Virus record (IMG/VR): IMGVR_UViG_3300017962_001464
Span: 1 to 24,561 of that record
Direction: 5' to 3' (one strand)
From: a virus
DNA: 24,561 nt
This document shows, one piece after another, positions 3,981 through 19,707 of this stretch. The notes under the pieces were generated by a model. It did not search any database. It had not been told where the DNA came from and saw only the letters and a list, made by a program, of their open reading frames with translations. Every line of letters begins with the position of its first letter. Within the stretch, counting starts at the first letter, position 1. The translations under genes and the position numbers were made by a program.

Positions 3981-4505
3981 CTACCTTGCCCAACGATAAA
4001 AAATGTGTTCTCCAATAGTTCCTACCAACTGCATATCATCAATCCAATTAGGTTTAACATAATCTGCATGATAGTGAGTTGCACCTTCTGTTAAACCTCT
4101 GTATTGACCGTGATAGATCATAGCATAAGCAATCGTTTGAGCTCGTACCCATGCGTCTTTATTTCTTGGATAATCGCTTCTGCCATCACACCACCAACTG
4201 AATTGACATTGGTTGCGAACAGGTACAAGTACATTTTGATCTTTCCAACTTCTCATATACTTGCCTTGGTGTACTACTTTACAAACCGTATTTGGATAGC
4301 GAGTATCTTCTACACGATTAAGAACAACGTCCGCAACGGCTACTTGATCTGCATAAGAACTGCCCCTGCTTTCAAAATAAATGTTTTGTGCTAAACACCA
4401 AGCCTCAGGCTTGTCCTCGGGTGTAAACAACACACTCATACCGGTTGATGCTTGTGCTGGAGAGAGTGAAAGTACAAGCATGAATGCCAAAATAAATTTT
4501 TTCAT
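3981..4505 (-). CDS. Exported SleB-type cell wall hydrolase
   Basis: Peptidoglycan hydrolase of the SleB/CwlJ (Hydrolase_2) family. The frame is open upstream to 4658, but the start at 4505 is preferred: it follows an AAAGGGA SD, opens a Sec signal (MKKFILAFMLVLSLSPAQA, predicted cleavage after AQA at 19), and begins 16 nt after the upstream stop. The mature domain shows the family signature LAQNIYFESRGSS with the conserved Glu at 45, then QVAVADVVLNRV, a Cys pair around 75-100 and CQFSWWCDG at 100-108. At 174 residues it is a single catalytic domain with no separate binding domain. With its own signal it could reach the periplasm without a holin. It may serve lysis or local wall opening; the family also occurs in tails, but the signal argues against a virion role. 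Confidence 0.88.
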   Translation of the reverse strand: MKKFILAFMLVLSLSPAQASTGMSVLFTPEDKPEAWCLAQNIYFESRGSSYADQVAVADVVLNRVEDTRYPNTVCKVVHQGKYMRSWKDQNVLVPVRNQCQFSWWCDGRSDYPRNKDAWVRAQTIAYAMIYHGQYRGLTEGATHYHADYVKPNWIDDMQLVGTIGEHIFYRWAR

Positions 4506-4521
4506 TTGATTCCCTTTTTGA

Positions 4522-4956
4522 TTAGTTTCGACGCATCTGCGATACTTCAATCGCCTGCTGTCTATTAGTAATTGGCACCAGATTGCTTTTGTGCATAGTT
4601 GCGATGCCTGTGATATAGTCCCCAGTATATTTAGTAGGTTCTTTCTTAGGAGCCACACCTGCTATACCATCACTTAAACTAGGAATATATGGGGTTTCGC
4701 GTACATGACTGTAATCAGGTTTGTAAGGTTTAAACTCTTGATTAGTCTTTTTAGGTTTATGTTCGCCGCGAAGATACGAAAGATACAGTTCGAACGTCTC
4801 GAACTGTGCCGAATGGCAGTTTGCTTTACGCATACGCTTGTTGTATGCTCTCCATTCTGCTTCTAATTTAACTTTTTGATTGTTAGTAAGTTTTTTCTGC
4901 TTACGCTTCTTGTAGTTAGTAGTAGTTAGATACGGTCCTACTAGGTGCATAGTCAT
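4522..4956 (-). CDS. Conserved phage hypothetical, 144 aa
   Basis: Basic soluble protein with a C-terminal block KYTGDYITGIATMHKSNLVP at about 114-133, followed by EVSQMRRN. From memory this block is a hallmark of a widespread small protein of unknown function in marine and other tailed phages. The N-terminus (MHLVGPYLTTT) is also typical. A GCAGGG SD sits 8 nt before the first ATG; a second ATG two codons later is possible. It has its own sigma70-like promoter (4992-5020). A perfect 12-bp inverted repeat has one arm in the promoter spacer and the other over the SD, which suggests control by a repressor or RNA fold. Confidence 0.82.
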   Translation of the reverse strand: MTMHLVGPYLTTTNYKKRKQKKLTNNQKVKLEAEWRAYNKRMRKANCHSAQFETFELYLSYLRGEHKPKKTNQEFKPYKPDYSHVRETPYIPSLSDGIAGVAPKKEPTKYTGDYITGIATMHKSNLVPITNRQQAIEVSQMRRN

Positions 4957-14404: not shown

Positions 14405-16297
14405 TTAAGATCGAACATGTGATTTCATAGTATAATACATGATTCCGATGTCATTTACAATGGAATTTGAGTAAGTAACATTAATTGCGTCGGTGATGTT
14501 GTCCAAAGGAGCAAAATCTAATAGATCCGCTGCAAAACTCAATGCTTCTTGATACTGTGAATCGCCCTGATAATCGTATTCAAAACTGACTTCTACGGTG
14601 TTTGGTGTTACTTCCATGTTAAGATTAACGTTGATTCTTCCTTTATATGTTGCATTAACAACAGTGCTTGAATAGAAGAAGTCGATCTCATATGAAGCAG
14701 TTTGTCTACCTGGAAGTCTAAATGCAACGCCATCTAAGATAGCTCCCTCAACTTTTGCTTGCATTGGGTAATTGTACTCTGTAACACCCGATGAAGAAAC
14801 TTCTGGTAGATAATTTGTGTAAGAATATGTTAAAGGTAATACGGTATTGTTAGACACGTTAGTTGCTAGATTTTTGTCTAGTGTTATAATGTCGCCGTTA
14901 GTAGTGTTACCTTGTGCATATGCTGTAATTGTATATGTTGTAGAAGTAATACCGTCAGTTAGAATAAACTGTCGACCAACCATATTTGATTCTTCTTCTA
15001 AAACATGAATAATGTTAATTGTGTTGTTACCAACAATTTGACTAACACGTACACGAACAGTAACAATATTTTCTGTGTTACCAAGTGTAACTCGTCTGTC
15101 AAAGTAATCGCTTTTACTTGTGCCGCCGTCACTAAACTTTAGTACATTTGTAATTGTATTGTTTTCACCAGCACCGTTTGTACCAACTTTTGAGTAACGG
15201 TTGCCACTGCTCATAATACCAAAGCCATCTTCTTGTAGAATAGCTTCTTTAGCAATAGTATCAAATACATTGTTTTGTACAACAATGTTTCTTGGGCCTA
15301 CACGCTCTCCAGGAATAGTACCACTTGTGCCGCGGCCATAAATCATACCATAGCCGCAAGTCTTAAAACAACTTTCGCTAAAGGTAATATCTGTAATGTC
15401 ATACTTAGATGCTACTGCTGTTGACCAATTTGAAATACACATGTCTGTAAAGTGTATGTTTTGGCAGTAGATGCTGTTTGAAAAACAAGTAAACTCAATG
15501 CCGTAAGTTAAAACATAACTTGGATCATCAAGGTCTTGTATGCTTGCTAAGTTCCAAGGACCAATAATATCAATGTCTGCAAATGTACTGTCTCTTGTAC
15601 TGTTTAATTCAAAACCATGAATGCCTGAAGTAGCAGTACAATCAAATGTTATACCTTCAATGTGAATATTTGCAGGAGCAATATCGTATGTTAGATCTCC
15701 TACGTCACTTTGATTAATTCTATATGTGCCTGGCACACTTGAACCGTTAACAGTTCTTAGGATAAAGTCATTTGTTGTTTGTTTAATAAATGTTTTTTGT
15801 TTGCCTGCACCGCATATTTTAGCGTTTGGAGGAATATACAAAGCAGATGAAATTTTATAAACACCAGGCTTCATGTGTAAAACTACACGACTAGATTCAC
15901 TACCTTGTGTTGTTGAATTAATGTATGTTTGATCAATAGCACGTTGTAGTGCAACAGTGTCGTCAACAATGCCATCTCCAACAACACCAAAAGAATCTAC
16001 ATAAACAATGTCGTCTAGTCTATCTTGTAGTGTACGTCTTGTAGCACCTGTATCAATAAGTCCAGTGCCTTCTTTATACTCATAACTTTCAGTTAGTGTA
16101 AAAAGGTTATCGTGCTCGGTTAGTATCTTAGAGTTACCTACATACGGAGCACCTTCAGCCACAGAACCATTACCAATAAACAATTCTTGTGTGTCAACTG
16201 CCCAACCTAGCTCACCAGAAGATAGCTGAGGTATACCTGTACCTTCGTTTTTGCGACCTCTTCTGTGTTGGATCTTACTGATTTGTACAACAGCCAT
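14405..16297 (-). CDS. Tail fibre/spike with pectate-lyase-type beta helix
   Basis: 630 residues. The N-terminal 40 residues (VQISKIQHRRGRKNEG...LSSGELGWAVDTQELFIGNG) match the Mtd-N-like module that starts many phage fibres and forms attachment trimers. Then DSFGVVGDGIVDDTVALQRAID at about 97-118 is the classic start of a pectate-lyase-3 beta helix, followed by repeated short strands with turn Asn/Gly residues (GVYKISSALYIPPNAKICGAG and onward) to about 370. The last 250 residues are beta-rich and unrecognised, probably the receptor-binding tip or trimer domain. Probably binds or cleaves surface polysaccharide; catalytic residues are not obvious. SD AGGAGAA; a late octamer CATAAATA lies about 27 nt upstream, inside the preceding endonuclease gene. 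Confidence 0.88.
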   Translation of the reverse strand: MAVVQISKIQHRRGRKNEGTGIPQLSSGELGWAVDTQELFIGNGSVAEGAPYVGNSKILTEHDNLFTLTESYEYKEGTGLIDTGATRRTLQDRLDDIVYVDSFGVVGDGIVDDTVALQRAIDQTYINSTTQGSESSRVVLHMKPGVYKISSALYIPPNAKICGAGKQKTFIKQTTNDFILRTVNGSSVPGTYRINQSDVGDLTYDIAPANIHIEGITFDCTATSGIHGFELNSTRDSTFADIDIIGPWNLASIQDLDDPSYVLTYGIEFTCFSNSIYCQNIHFTDMCISNWSTAVASKYDITDITFSESCFKTCGYGMIYGRGTSGTIPGERVGPRNIVVQNNVFDTIAKEAILQEDGFGIMSSGNRYSKVGTNGAGENNTITNVLKFSDGGTSKSDYFDRRVTLGNTENIVTVRVRVSQIVGNNTINIIHVLEEESNMVGRQFILTDGITSTTYTITAYAQGNTTNGDIITLDKNLATNVSNNTVLPLTYSYTNYLPEVSSSGVTEYNYPMQAKVEGAILDGVAFRLPGRQTASYEIDFFYSSTVVNATYKGRINVNLNMEVTPNTVEVSFEYDYQGDSQYQEALSFAADLLDFAPLDNITDAINVTYSNSIVNDIGIMYYTMKSHVRS

Positions 16298-16306
16298 TCT
16301 GTTCTC

Positions 16307-16912
16307 CTACGCTTTTATTATTGTATTTATGCTCTGTTTCGCTTTCCAGCTGGTCCAAGATTCATACTTACGTTTATAATTCCCTTTTGCACTAGGAGGC
16401 ATGCTGCGTTTGTATTCTTGCCAAGCATCAAAGTGTTCTTTTGCTTTAGTTTCGTCAGTTTTTAGATAATATCTTGCTAACATACGATGTCTATTGCCTA
16501 CTTTATGCTCTGCATGTCGTTCTGCATTACGTATCTTATCTACACGTTTTCGTATACTAGGATCGTCATACTGTCCTACAAGCATTCCGTCTTTGTAATT
16601 AGGATTACTTTCGCCTGACAGTCTTACAGTACCCATAGGATCACCTACAATAATATTGTAGTAGTTGCTCCAGGTTCCTCTTTTGGATCGTTGATCTTGA
16701 AACTTAAACTCTGCTTTTAAGGCTTGTTCGTATGTGTCAAATTCAAATACAACTTTGCGTTTAAGTGTATCTTTGCGTTCAGCAATAATTTGTTTAAACT
16801 CTTTGTTTTGACTGCTACAAAAATAGTCTTTGTACTTGCCGTTTGAAACACCTATATAAGATTTCTTGTTTATAGGATCACGGATTATATAAACATTAGG
16901 CTTGTTGTTCAT
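16307..16912 (-). CDS. GIY-YIG endonuclease (homing or Seg-like)
   Basis: 201 residues from the ATG at 16912; the frame is open to 17071 but the extension lies inside the upstream nuclease gene and is not domain-like. The catalytic domain begins NVYIIRDPINKKSYIGVSNG (a VYII...YIG variant of GIY-YIG), with an Arg/Glu-containing helix region (FEFDTYEQALKAEFKFQDQR). SGESNPNYKDG at about 120-130 looks like a NUMOD3 DNA-binding motif, followed by a very basic tail. It overlaps the end of the nuclease gene by 17 nt and lacks a good SD. It is free-standing with no interrupted host gene visible, and is a likely selfish insertion beside the tail fibre. Confidence 0.83.
   Translation of the reverse strand: MNNKPNVYIIRDPINKKSYIGVSNGKYKDYFCSSQNKEFKQIIAERKDTLKRKVVFEFDTYEQALKAEFKFQDQRSKRGTWSNYYNIIVGDPMGTVRLSGESNPNYKDGMLVGQYDDPSIRKRVDKIRNAERHAEHKVGNRHRMLARYYLKTDETKAKEHFDAWQEYKRSMPPSAKGNYKRKYESWTSWKAKQSINTIIKA
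16324..16331 (-). promoter_or_regulatory. Late-type octamer CATAAATA before the tail fibre gene
   Basis: Located in the last codons of the GIY-YIG gene, 26 nt upstream of the fibre ATG; leaves room for a short leader carrying AGGAGAA. Confidence 0.5.
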
Positions 16913-17576
16913 AGTATTGATATACTCTGTTGTACCATTCTTGTCGCCACTCTTCGTATTCGTGTGGCCATATATCAAACTGTTGATATTGCAAGTCTCT
17001 ACTGCACATAAAAACATGTCCTTCACGTATGTTAGTACCATAAATTTCATTATGTGCTTCTGCATACGCAACTAACTGTAGGAAATAATCCTGCACCCAT
17101 TCAACTTTTTTAGGCTTGTTAGTTTGTTTAAAGTCCATGATAGAGGGTTGGCCTTTGTACTGTCCTACAAGGTCAGTAGTACCTGCATACATCTGCGGCA
17201 TATACAGATTTACTTCGCTGCCCCATATTTCGTCTACATCAGTAAGAGCATTTGCTTTAATTTGCTCTGCCATACTGTGTGCTTGCTGTGCATAAGGATT
17301 AGATCCAGGCGTAGGCCATTCACCAAACTCAATATAATCCTCTAGATACTTGTGCATCCTTGTACCTACACCAGCGGCTTCAGTTACAATTTCTTTTGCT
17401 TTCTGTTCGCCTACACGTTTCTTCCAAGCAATAAGATGTGTCTTATCTTTGGTTGCGTCTAGTATCGTAGTAACACTTGCAACTGCATTGCCGTCAGGTG
17501 TTTTGTAAAGTCTTTTGCCGTTTACTTGTTCTCTATTAATAGGTTGGTAATCATAGCGATTTGTTATCAGTGTCAT
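16896..17576 (-). CDS. PD-(D/E)XK exonuclease (RecB/Cas4-like fold)
   Basis: 226 residues. Motifs in order: SVTTILDATKDK, GVGTRMHKYLED (His 75), SEVNLY (Glu 121), AGTTDLVG (Asp 135), IMDFKQT (Asp 148, Lys 150), and QLVAYAEA (Q-x-x-x-Y motif at 167-171). This is the RecB/Cas4/AddB-type nuclease core in full. Only one Cys (MCSRD) is present, so unlike Cas4 it lacks Fe-S ligands. Such stand-alone exonucleases are common in T4-like marine phages and probably act in DNA recombination or processing. It overlaps the NifU-like gene upstream by 26 nt and the GIY-YIG gene downstream by 17 nt. Confidence 0.9.
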   Translation of the reverse strand: MTLITNRYDYQPINREQVNGKRLYKTPDGNAVASVTTILDATKDKTHLIAWKKRVGEQKAKEIVTEAAGVGTRMHKYLEDYIEFGEWPTPGSNPYAQQAHSMAEQIKANALTDVDEIWGSEVNLYMPQMYAGTTDLVGQYKGQPSIMDFKQTNKPKKVEWVQDYFLQLVAYAEAHNEIYGTNIREGHVFMCSRDLQYQQFDIWPHEYEEWRQEWYNRVYQYYEQQA

Positions 17577-17880
17577 CCAGGTTTATCTCTTCTAATATTT
17601 CCCTATCAGTATAATAAGGATTTGTAATAGCATCATCTTCTGCTTCTATTGCAAGTATTTCCGGGATGAAATGTTTCATCATGTTTTCAATACCATACTT
17701 TAATGTTGCTGTAGATCCTGCACATCCTGCACATGATCCGCTCATTTGTAGTTTGAGTATACCATCTTTGTAGTCTACGAAGTTTACAATACCTCCGTGA
17801 CTGGCAACAGCTGGTGCAACTCTACTCTCAAGTAGCTCATGAATCTGTGCAACAATGTCTTCATTGCTTCTATCAGTCAT
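17551..17880 (-). CDS. NifU-like Fe-S scaffold domain protein
   Basis: 109 residues, equal to one NifU C-terminal (Nfu) domain. Key parts: IHELLESRVAPAVASHGG, FVDYKDGILKLQMSGSCAGC, with the cluster Cys pair at 50 and 53 (CxxC) followed by STATLKYGIE. A 35-residue acidic tail follows. The protein would carry a [4Fe-4S] cluster at a dimer interface and deliver it to target proteins. It has a strong-looking promoter and GGAG SD, hence probable early expression. It overlaps the exonuclease gene, but that enzyme has no Fe-S cysteines, so the client is elsewhere: host enzymes or another phage protein outside the window. Confidence 0.92.
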   Translation of the reverse strand: MTDRSNEDIVAQIHELLESRVAPAVASHGGIVNFVDYKDGILKLQMSGSCAGCAGSTATLKYGIENMMKHFIPEILAIEAEDDAITNPYYTDREILEEINLDDTDNKSL

Positions 17881-17933: not shown

Positions 17934-18575
17934 CTATTTTATTTGAAAAACTTTCATATTATCAAAAGCACGATGCCATCCAAAGTAGTTTGCTTTATAA
18001 TCAGATTGATCGTCTGAACTAAGGTTCATCCATTCGTCTCTGCGTTGGTATAATTGCATTGCACCGTCATACCAATCTGTATTTTCTATAATGTTTTCTA
18101 GTTTAGATTTTGCTTTAGATGCTTCGTACAATGTATCAAAGTCTTGTTCTATATGTATAACTTCCATTACTAAGTCATGCGTTACATAATCAAGACTAAA
18201 GTCTATTCCCCACTTGGGTTTGATATTTAATAGTTTTTGTAGTATAGGTCTGTGTTTTGAAACTTCTACTATTTGTTCTCTTGCTTCACCACTAAACGCA
18301 TAACGTGTTAGTAACATGCAATGATCTAATACAAGTCCATGTTCGCTAGATTCTATGTCATGATACCATTCTTGCACAGGAGCAATATGGTATTGTATCT
18401 CTCTGTTGAGTTTAACACCGTTTGCTTCGTAGTGCAAGTGTTCTAAAGGAGTTGGAACTTCGTAACCATCCTTGTCAAAGTCTTTGAAAGGAAGTGTTTC
18501 TACTAGTGTTCGTTCAATTGGTTTTGTTAGATAAGGATTGTCGGTAAACTTTGGATGCAAGTTCACTAGCTGCAT
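17934..18575 (-). CDS. Hypothetical phage protein, 213 aa
   Basis: Acidic soluble protein without a family I can name. It contains PTPLEHLHYEANGVKLNREI, a Tyr/His/Trp-rich middle and a C-terminal helix pair (YEASKAKSKLENIIENTDWY...). No metal-binding or nucleotide-binding motif is evident. Its ATG overlaps the stop of the upstream late gene as TAATG, so it belongs to that transcript, while the next gene downstream starts a new promoter. It is probably a late or virion-associated protein by position only. Confidence 0.7.
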   Translation of the reverse strand: MQLVNLHPKFTDNPYLTKPIERTLVETLPFKDFDKDGYEVPTPLEHLHYEANGVKLNREIQYHIAPVQEWYHDIESSEHGLVLDHCMLLTRYAFSGEAREQIVEVSKHRPILQKLLNIKPKWGIDFSLDYVTHDLVMEVIHIEQDFDTLYEASKAKSKLENIIENTDWYDGAMQLYQRRDEWMNLSSDDQSDYKANYFGWHRAFDNMKVFQIK

Positions 18576-18868
18576 TATAAATCAGAACCTAAACCTCTTT
18601 TGGCTGCACGTTTTGCTGCGGCTGTTACGTTTGCTTCGCCGCCATCTTGATCAGCAGGTGCTTCGTCGCCGCCTTCAGATGTTGCAATAGTAATACCATC
18701 TTCGTTAAAATCTTTTACAAGTTCTTTGAGTGCTGGAGTTGCATCATACATTTGTTTAAACCCTTCGTATGAAAAACTTTCGCCTCCTACGTTTTGCATT
18801 ATACGATCCAATGCACTAAACGAAAGAAAGGCAGGCTGTCCTTTAGAATCAGCTCTGCCTTTCAGCAT
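18575..18868 (-). CDS. Conserved late protein, probably with upstream N-terminus
   Basis: 97 residues from the first ATG. The block SKGQPAFLSFSALDRIMQNV followed by GGESFSYEGFKQMYD is, from memory, a conserved protein following the scaffold-like gene in T4-like marine phages. The tail is acidic and then Ala/Lys/Arg-rich. The frame stays open and protein-like upstream of this ATG: 16 more codons read LISEASDPNKVIQLLR, back through GTC into the A9 run in the end of the preceding gene. No ATG, GTG or TTG start exists in that extension and no SD precedes the internal ATG. The product may therefore be made as a -1 frameshift fusion with the upstream protein, or the A run may contain a sequence error. 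Confidence 0.7.
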   Translation of the reverse strand: MLKGRADSKGQPAFLSFSALDRIMQNVGGESFSYEGFKQMYDATPALKELVKDFNEDGITIATSEGGDEAPADQDGGEANVTAAAKRAAKRGLGSDL

Positions 18869-18912
18869 TCTTAATAGTTGTATAACTTTATTCGGATCTG
18901 ATGCCTCTGAGA

Positions 18913-19707
18913 TTAAGACTTTTTTTTTGAAAGCATTTCTGCTAGTTTGCGTGAACGTTGTGCAAGTTCAGCTAACTTTTTTTTTGAATACTGTTTAGAT
19001 TCTCTTTTTTCTCTGCCTGCTTCTGCTTCACCGCCTGTAGCTGCTGGGGCTGCTGCGAAATCGTCTCCTGTATCAGTAACGGGTTCCATTGCTGGCTCTT
19101 CGCCGCCTTCGCCTTCTGGTGGCATTGGTTCTGCACCCATGTCCGGAGCAGGTGCTTCTGCTTCACCAGTTAGTTGTCCTACGCCTTGTGTTAATGAGCC
19201 TCTGGTTGATTCAAGTGCTGTGTAAAGAGATTCAAGTGCTGGCTTAACAGTAGCAACAAAGGATTCGCTTGCTTCGCTGCCTACTTCATCACGGATAGCA
19301 TCTGCTAGTTGTAGCATTGAGTCTGCTTGCATTTCCGCGGTGTCTTCCATCCAACTAGTAACACGGTCAACCATATCTTTAGCTGCCATTACTAGTTCTG
19401 CTTTATCTTCTTCGCCTTCGGTAATTTTAGTTTCAACAACCTTACCAGTGTTTTCCTCACGCTCTGCTAAAGCTGCATGTATTGTGTCTATAAAAAGTTT
19501 GTTCTTTTGATAGTTAGTGTTCTTGTGTAGGCTATCAAATGGAAGCTCTTGCTCCATAGCAAACACTTTGGTACGTAGTTTGTTACGTACATCTTCTAGC
19601 TGCTCTGTTGTAAAAGCATCTAGATTAATCTTTTGGCCAAAGGTCTTAGCTAATGACTCGTTTAGAGCCTTTGACGTAATTGGTTTTGCGAATTCTCTTA
19701 TGTTCAT
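18913..19707 (-). CDS. Scaffold/core-like late protein, 264 aa
   Basis: The frame is open to a GTG at 19725, but the ATG at 19707 is preferred because AGGAAGAG sits just before it. The N-terminal half (FTTEQLEDVRNKLRTKV, then AELVMAAKDMVDRVTSWMED and EMQADSMLQLADAIRDE) is helical and matches a conserved late protein of T4-like cyanophages, probably of the prohead/core. A Pro/Glu/Gly/Ala-rich linker covers about 185-240. The last 25 residues are basic with two Ser-Lys-Lys-Lys motifs, both encoded by TCA followed by A8G. A stop comes directly after the second. A late octamer lies 37 nt upstream. The low-complexity tail fits a scaffold-like protein; function is inferred from neighbourhood. Confidence 0.78.
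   Translation of the reverse strand: MNIREFAKPITSKALNESLAKTFGQKINLDAFTTEQLEDVRNKLRTKVFAMEQELPFDSLHKNTNYQKNKLFIDTIHAALAEREENTGKVVETKITEGEEDKAELVMAAKDMVDRVTSWMEDTAEMQADSMLQLADAIRDEVGSEASESFVATVKPALESLYTALESTRGSLTQGVGQLTGEAEAPAPDMGAEPMPPEGEGGEEPAMEPVTDTGDDFAAAPAATGGEAEAGREKRESKQYSKKKLAELAQRSRKLAEMLSKKKS
18916..18930 (-). promoter_or_regulatory. Candidate -1 frameshift site (A9G run)
   Basis: Minus strand: TC followed by nine A and a G, read in the scaffold frame as TCA AAA AAA AAG TCT TAA. This places an A AAA AAG heptamer, the dnaX-type slippery sequence, one codon before the stop. A -1 slip continues as GTC TTA ATC TCA directly into the open frame of 18575-18868. No clear stimulatory hairpin or internal SD was found. 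Confidence 0.5.

Follow-up and report, generated by a model that had tools for sequence, protein, structure and literature searches.

A run of nine adenines followed by a guanine (A9G) at the 3' end of a gene for a virion-structural-type protein, here called P, is probably a site of programmed -1 recoding, by which the -1-frame segment immediately behind it, here called D, would be joined to a minor share of P as a 377-aa P-D fusion. The junction lies in a 24,561-base virus fragment from IMG/VR, the whole of which is referred to as the window, with P, the slip run and D all on its minus strand. We assign a probability of roughly 0.7 to this reading, in which ribosomal slippage is the most likely route and polymerase slippage may add to it. 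That recoding of one kind or the other takes place at the junction is in our judgment highly probable, and that the ribosome has the main role in it is judged probable. Programmed recoding was among the readings offered in an earlier note on this DNA, and comparison with relatives now lends it support.

In the proposed mechanism, the majority of ribosomes would stop at the TAA codon to give P, and some would move back one base on A_AAA_AAG, so that the peptide ending in SKKK would continue as VLISEA and on through D. The minor 377-aa product would then be a virion protein bearing a winged-helix-like domain at its end. Slippage would be promoted by the stop codon next to the site, in many relatives also by a stem-loop a short way downstream, and RNA polymerase slipping on A9 may contribute. 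In a minority of relatives, in which the signal is missing, D would be made separately from its own ATG.

The junction of P and D in the window

Gene P (18913-19707, minus strand) runs from the ATG at 19707, which is preceded by AGGAAGAG, to the TAA at 18913-18915 and encodes an acidic, helical protein of 264 aa, the 0-frame product. P matched phrog_14154 (virion structural protein) with an E-value of 3.3e-13 and no capsid family, and its AF2 model, with a mean pLDDT of 66, consists for the most part of long helices. Three of six larger records of relatives (330, 357, and 262 kb) have a major capsid gene, of the gp23 type, elsewhere. The term "scaffold-like", which the earlier note had used for P, is loosely right at best, as P matches a virion-structural family and its homologue in phage CBB was found in finished particles. 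A search of the phage collection with the P of the window returned one record, and a search with the DNA of the window returned no match.

The 3' end of P reads TCA AAA AAA AAG TCT TAA. The A9G run occupies 18919-18928 and is kept in relatives; the slippery heptamer A_AAA_AAG is in the 0 frame at 18919-18925, ahead of the 0-frame stop, and the TCT codon and TAA (18913-18918) stand right behind the slip site. P therefore ends one codon past the run, and the heptamer is correctly phased for -1 slippage, both as previously described. In the -1 frame the sequence continues as KKK-VLISEASDPNKVIQLLR and runs on into a 97-aa open reading frame (18575-18868), and neither ATG, GTG nor TTG was found in this frame between the slip site and 18868, which bears out the further claim that the frame is open here without a start codon. 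The start-less part of D amounts to 17 codons (18869-18919) and contains the first half of predicted helix 1. The whole of D (18575-18919) has 114 aa plus a stop codon, and the predicted fusion has 263 + 114 = 377 aa.

The core of D was predicted by AlphaFold as helix-strand-helix-helix-helix-strand-strand, with a mean pLDDT of 71 and values of about 80-90 for residues 11-80. The best solved matches in fold searches were mostly winged-helix domains and were weak (Z up to 6.1; best Foldseek E-value 0.77). Because scores this weak may stem from a common arrangement, we use "winged-helix-like" as a description of the fold and not of a function. Neither the D of the window nor that of a relative matched anything in the phage collection, no Pfam family was found for D across 70 members, no PHROG matched more than 4 of the 70, and PDB sequence searches returned nothing credible. 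The earliest ATG in the D frame past the slip site (18866-18868) is residue 18 of D and sits in predicted helix 1 (residues 9-26). Since initiation there would cut the predicted domain, this ATG was rejected as the start of D and is unlikely to be the true one.

A second A9G run lies within P at 18976-18985, where many relatives have their sole slip run. The earlier note was right about its existence and about the quick TGA, as -1 slippage at this run reads V S stop, with TGA after two codons, but the run begins 57 nt upstream of the used run and not 54 nt. The run-containing 12-mer has two copies in the window, against 0.02 expected from shuffles. An extra upstream A9G run is present in 7 of 121 run loci, the window among them, and slippage at it would give a shorter P.

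Several neighbouring genes of the window, all on the minus strand, may be mentioned here. A NifU-like domain protein, found here in a phage, is encoded at 17551-17880 (Pfam NifU, E-value 4.8e-22); a GIY-YIG or homing-endonuclease-like open reading frame at 16307-17071 overlaps, at its listed start, the end of the gene for the exonuclease (16896-17576); a tail-spike-like protein containing Mtd_N and pectate-lyase-like domains is encoded at 14405-16297; and a cell wall hydrolase domain (Pfam Hydrolase_2, E-value 1.3e-24) is encoded at 3981-4658, the product of which is possibly a lysis or entry enzyme.

Run and start codon among the relatives

Relatives were collected by one scan with D, which gave 6 loci, and by four scans with P, from each of which the best 80 of 507-577 relatives were taken. 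The resulting 316 loci (window included) comprised 313 with a stop codon of P, which formed 139 distinct clusters by shared 14-mers, a sample picked by similarity to the four P queries together with the 6 loci of the D scan. The three loci dropped were those in which P runs off the contig end, and L001 (the window) and L088 (Phosso) were omitted from the count. D was located using a profile built from 20 D sequences.

D lies directly behind P in all 139 distinct loci (window included), and P and D form a single in-frame open reading frame in none of them, which disposes of the hidden longer gene that had been considered earlier. P terminates on an in-frame A_AAA_AAN heptamer in 121 of the 139, ending in AAG in 104, AAA in 14, and AAC in 3. 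The runs at these 121 junctions are A9G (99), A10T (10), A8G (6), A9C (3), and A6G (3). Taking about nine or more A or T as the length of a slippage-prone homopolymer, the window has nine A, and 9-10 A are found in 112 of the 121 (112 of all 139 junctions), eight in six, and six in three, with 7 A in none. The 0-frame stop follows the heptamer at once in 77 loci and after one, two, three, and four codons in 29, 13, 1, and 1 of the 121. Away from the junction, a run of at least nine A was seen a single time in 845,216 nt of same-strand sequence from the relatives, so that about 0.005 would be expected in 139 windows of 30 nt.

The relatives fall into a run class (n = 120; L102, with a short run plus an ATG, is omitted) and a no-run class (n = 18). 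All 120 loci of the run class have D in the -1 frame, with an ATG ahead of it in one (L152), while in the no-run class the frame of D is 0, +1, and -1 in 8, 6, and 4 loci, respectively, and an ATG stands ahead of D in all 18. AGGA, GGAG, or GAGG near the stop of P was found in 13 of the 18 no-run loci and in 20 of the 120 run loci. Run and ATG thus exclude each other (Fisher p = 1e-21, uncorrected for kinship). In locus L156, SKKK is retained but spelled TCA AAG AAG AAG, and an ATG is available for D.

The start-less segment itself bears a coding signature. Of 990 differences in nearest-neighbour comparisons over 65 loci with a usable neighbour, in which mutual neighbours are counted twice, the third codon position of the -1 frame accounts for 481, the first for 317, and the second for 192, and this excess at third positions indicates that the -1 frame is translated. 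A -1-frame coding sequence without a start of its own is conserved across the relatives, as is characteristic of -1 frameshifting.

Ribosome, polymerase, and other explanations

Ribosomal and polymerase slippage would yield an identical peptide, and the evidence that bears on the choice between them comes from the composition and length of the run and from its surroundings. Two relatives, L214 and L240, have only six A (A6G) and still retain the heptamer, the -1 frame, and the lack of a start codon, which favours the ribosome. The preference for AAG over AAA at the end of the heptamer (104 to 14), though AAA makes up 66% of the lysine codons in P, favours it as well, and in Escherichia coli A_AA.A_AA.G is reported to rank in the top three motifs for efficiency when stimulators are present (PMC4066793).

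Structure downstream of the run also bears on this choice, as stems there are unable to form until the polymerase is past the run. In 60-nt sliding windows over 120 run loci, the mean z was -1.61 for windows at the end of the heptamer and -1.41 for those at +30, compared with +0.23 to -0.64 in farther windows (-420 to -90 and +60 to +450); the no-run loci are also somewhat structured (mean z -1.23, n = 18), so that stem-loops are not strictly confined to the run class. Uninterrupted stems of at least 9 bp beginning within 17 nt were found in 36 of 121 loci versus 1-11 of 121 at ten control offsets. L070 has a 15-bp stem with one bulge that begins 4 nt past the run (z -4.45 over 70 nt). In a clade of 19 loci (alignment A2), two stems have 87.3% of their cells paired; shuffles gave 83.2%, with none of 500 reaching the observed value, and sliding the stems lowered the figure to 35-53%. 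Compensatory cells number 22, versus 9.9.

Three observations are less comfortable for the ribosome. The first 60 nt past the slip site of the window contain no significant stem (z -0.24), and its stable stem-loop within D (18826-18863; z -4.07, with 0 of 200 shuffles folding as well) begins 55 nt past the heptamer, outside the usual stimulator spacing of 5-9 nt after the heptamer given in PMC5009743, which counts against our preferred reading; a structural stimulator on the 3' side is common at sites of this class, though not obligatory. The three loci with A9C, which are expected to slip less on the ribosome, count against it too. No Shine-Dalgarno-like stimulator was found upstream of the heptamer in 112 of the 121 loci; this feature is optional (as in dnaX), and membership in the class of -1 frameshift sites is compatible with its absence. 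As a separate observation, a perfect hairpin about 50-59 nt past the heptamer is found in L070, L010, L012, L023, L027, and others, in the D codons for K-A-A-G-V-A-A-L; it occurs in several compensated stem spellings, is followed by CTTTAT, and is terminator- or attenuator-like.

Transcriptional slippage alone, in which the polymerase would add an A at A9 and standard translation would then give the same P-D fusion, is the strongest competitor, albeit an unlikely one. Highly efficient slippage of bacterial RNA polymerase on stretches of nine A or T is reported (PMC5009743), and 118 of the 121 runs have 8-10 A, with 99 being exactly A9G. Among 110 TCN serine codons directly ahead of the run, 101 are TCA, versus 66% elsewhere. 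This excess, together with the lack of 7-A runs, suggests that length is selected beyond the need of the heptamer, which suits polymerase slippage, as does the existence of the A9C loci. The two A6G loci, the G favoured after the run, and the timing of the downstream stems speak against the polymerase as the only agent; we infer that the ribosome does most of the slipping.

Separate translation of D by internal or rare-codon initiation, with the run as an incidental feature, appears very improbable. The earlier note had held that homologues starting with an ATG right at the LISEA segment would tell against recoding; this applies in part, D or its positional counterpart beginning with an ATG of its own near that segment in 18 of the 139 loci and in all seven distant cultured phages considered below, but the run is missing there. 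Within the run class, ATG, GTG, or TTG ahead of D was found in 10 of 120 loci, five of which have a GTG overlapping the stop of P. The median distance from the slip site to the first ATG, GTG, or TTG in the -1 frame is 24 codons, the first such ATG of the window would cut predicted helix 1, and the run is retained wherever the start is absent. The five loci with the overlapping GTG (L003, L126, L132, L149, and L171) have A9G followed at once by TGA, and they are possibly intermediates able to use slippage or coupled initiation.

That the A-run is kept for the sake of the protein or the DNA, as a lysine tail or through codon bias, and has no role in recoding is hardly credible. The end of P is lysine-rich in most loci, but the terminal KKK is spelled AAA AAA AAG/AAA in 115 of 117 loci, compared with 7 of 86 for KKK elsewhere in P, and the run-less loci have a start for D; this explanation was rejected on the contrast in KKK spelling. 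Long homopolymers are prone to sequencing error, but an error of sequencing or assembly, raised earlier as a homopolymer error, or a decayed fused gene is refuted by the comparison with relatives, as the same kind of run, heptamer, and -1 frame recur in 120 of 139 distinct loci (L102 omitted), none has P and D fused, and both frames carry a coding signature.

Distant phages, known systems, and meaning of the junction

With the P of relative L002 as the tblastn query, Sinorhizobium phage Phosso (E-value 3e-5) and Agrobacterium phage Atu_ph07 (2e-4) were matched, and XaC1, GAP32, CBB, Kaldavass, and XbC2 were matched weakly (0.07-0.8). GAP32 and CBB share the gene order of the window, in which a structural gene of the 70-aa type is followed by a hypothetical gene and then by P, with a 111-aa gene at the place of D, an exonuclease next, and ribonucleotide reductase later; this order supports the matches of P. 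Judging from sequence similarity and gene order, P belongs to the jumbo-phage family GAP32_293/CBB_298/Atu_ph07 gp044. The gene at the position of D has its own ATG in seven of seven distant cultured phages. By hhalign, D showed marginal similarity to the GAP32-type gene (GAP32_294/CBB_299; E-value 0.0018, probability 15%, colinear over 80 columns) and none to the D-position gene of Phosso and Atu_ph07. In CBB virions, 10 unique peptides of CBB_298 and 2 of CBB_299 are listed in Table 4 of PMC5259590, CBB_298 being identified as the P homologue and CBB_299 as the D-position gene by RefSeq numbering. The GAP32_293/294 and CBB_298/299 pairs thus resemble the junction in their order between the 70-aa-type structural gene and the exonuclease, followed by ribonucleotide reductase, and in the sequence of P, and differ in that the gene at the position of D stands alone, with its own ATG and no A-run.

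In a tree built from P after removal of its C-terminal 22 residues, the run/no-run label requires 5 changes (6 once the outgroup is included), compared with about 22 in shuffles. In five independent contrasts on this tree, absence of the run is paired with presence of the ATG in all (sign test p = 0.0625). In the AU test (p = 0.199), the 19 rows that do not belong to the run class stay compatible with forming one clade, and the root falls on a branch of length 4.63. Because of this AU result and the very long outgroup branch, repeated switching and its direction are not established.

The junction shares features with several known systems. Like bacterial A_AAA_AAG frameshifting (E. coli dnaX and the IS3/IS911 family), it has an in-frame heptamer, one product in the -1 frame, and in many relatives a stem-loop behind the site, but it has no Shine-Dalgarno-like stimulator in most loci, a run of nine A, and a stop beside the site, and the window is without a near stem. 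The A9 run and its conserved length resemble Thermus thermophilus dnaX (described in PMC5009743) and other cases of transcriptional slippage at nine A or T, from which the junction is set apart by the two relatives with six A, the G favoured after the run, and the downstream stems. In T7/T3 gene 10, Lactobacillus phage A2, and Listeria phages, slippage at the gene end adds a C-terminal domain to a fraction of a virion protein, as described in PMC5009743; here P is distinct from the major capsid protein, the domain gained would be winged-helix-like and not Ig-like, and the phage groups with T4-type jumbo phages. The lambda G/G-T tail chaperone likewise depends on a -1 shift close to the end of a gene for structural assembly, with a minor fusion as the product (PMC5009743), but the gene and its place are others, and lambda G and GT are described in that source as absent from virions, while the P homologue and the D-position product of CBB are present in them.

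The kind of mechanism is already known; what appears new in the searchable literature is where the junction sits, how widely it is conserved, and its exchange with independent initiation, and no earlier report of this site was found in open-licence PubMed Central titles and abstracts. A bolder reading, less likely than not, is that a whole jumbo-phage lineage both doses the winged-helix domain and tethers it to the virion protein by means of a dual-mode A9G, tuned for slippage by ribosome and polymerase alike, with several switches between the fusion and a free D. If this is true, the lineage would offer a natural series of recoding gain and loss for one protein pair.

The predicted product being the fusion, phage annotation would miss D or truncate it at the internal ATG. 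More than 100 natural junctions, with A6, A8, A9, and A10 runs or none, are at hand to probe what drives bacterial slippage, and they make a clear case in which recoding and separate initiation substitute for each other in the same protein pair. As to the particle, we infer from the junction a minor component of jumbo-phage virions, probably present at a fixed ratio, which can be searched for directly.
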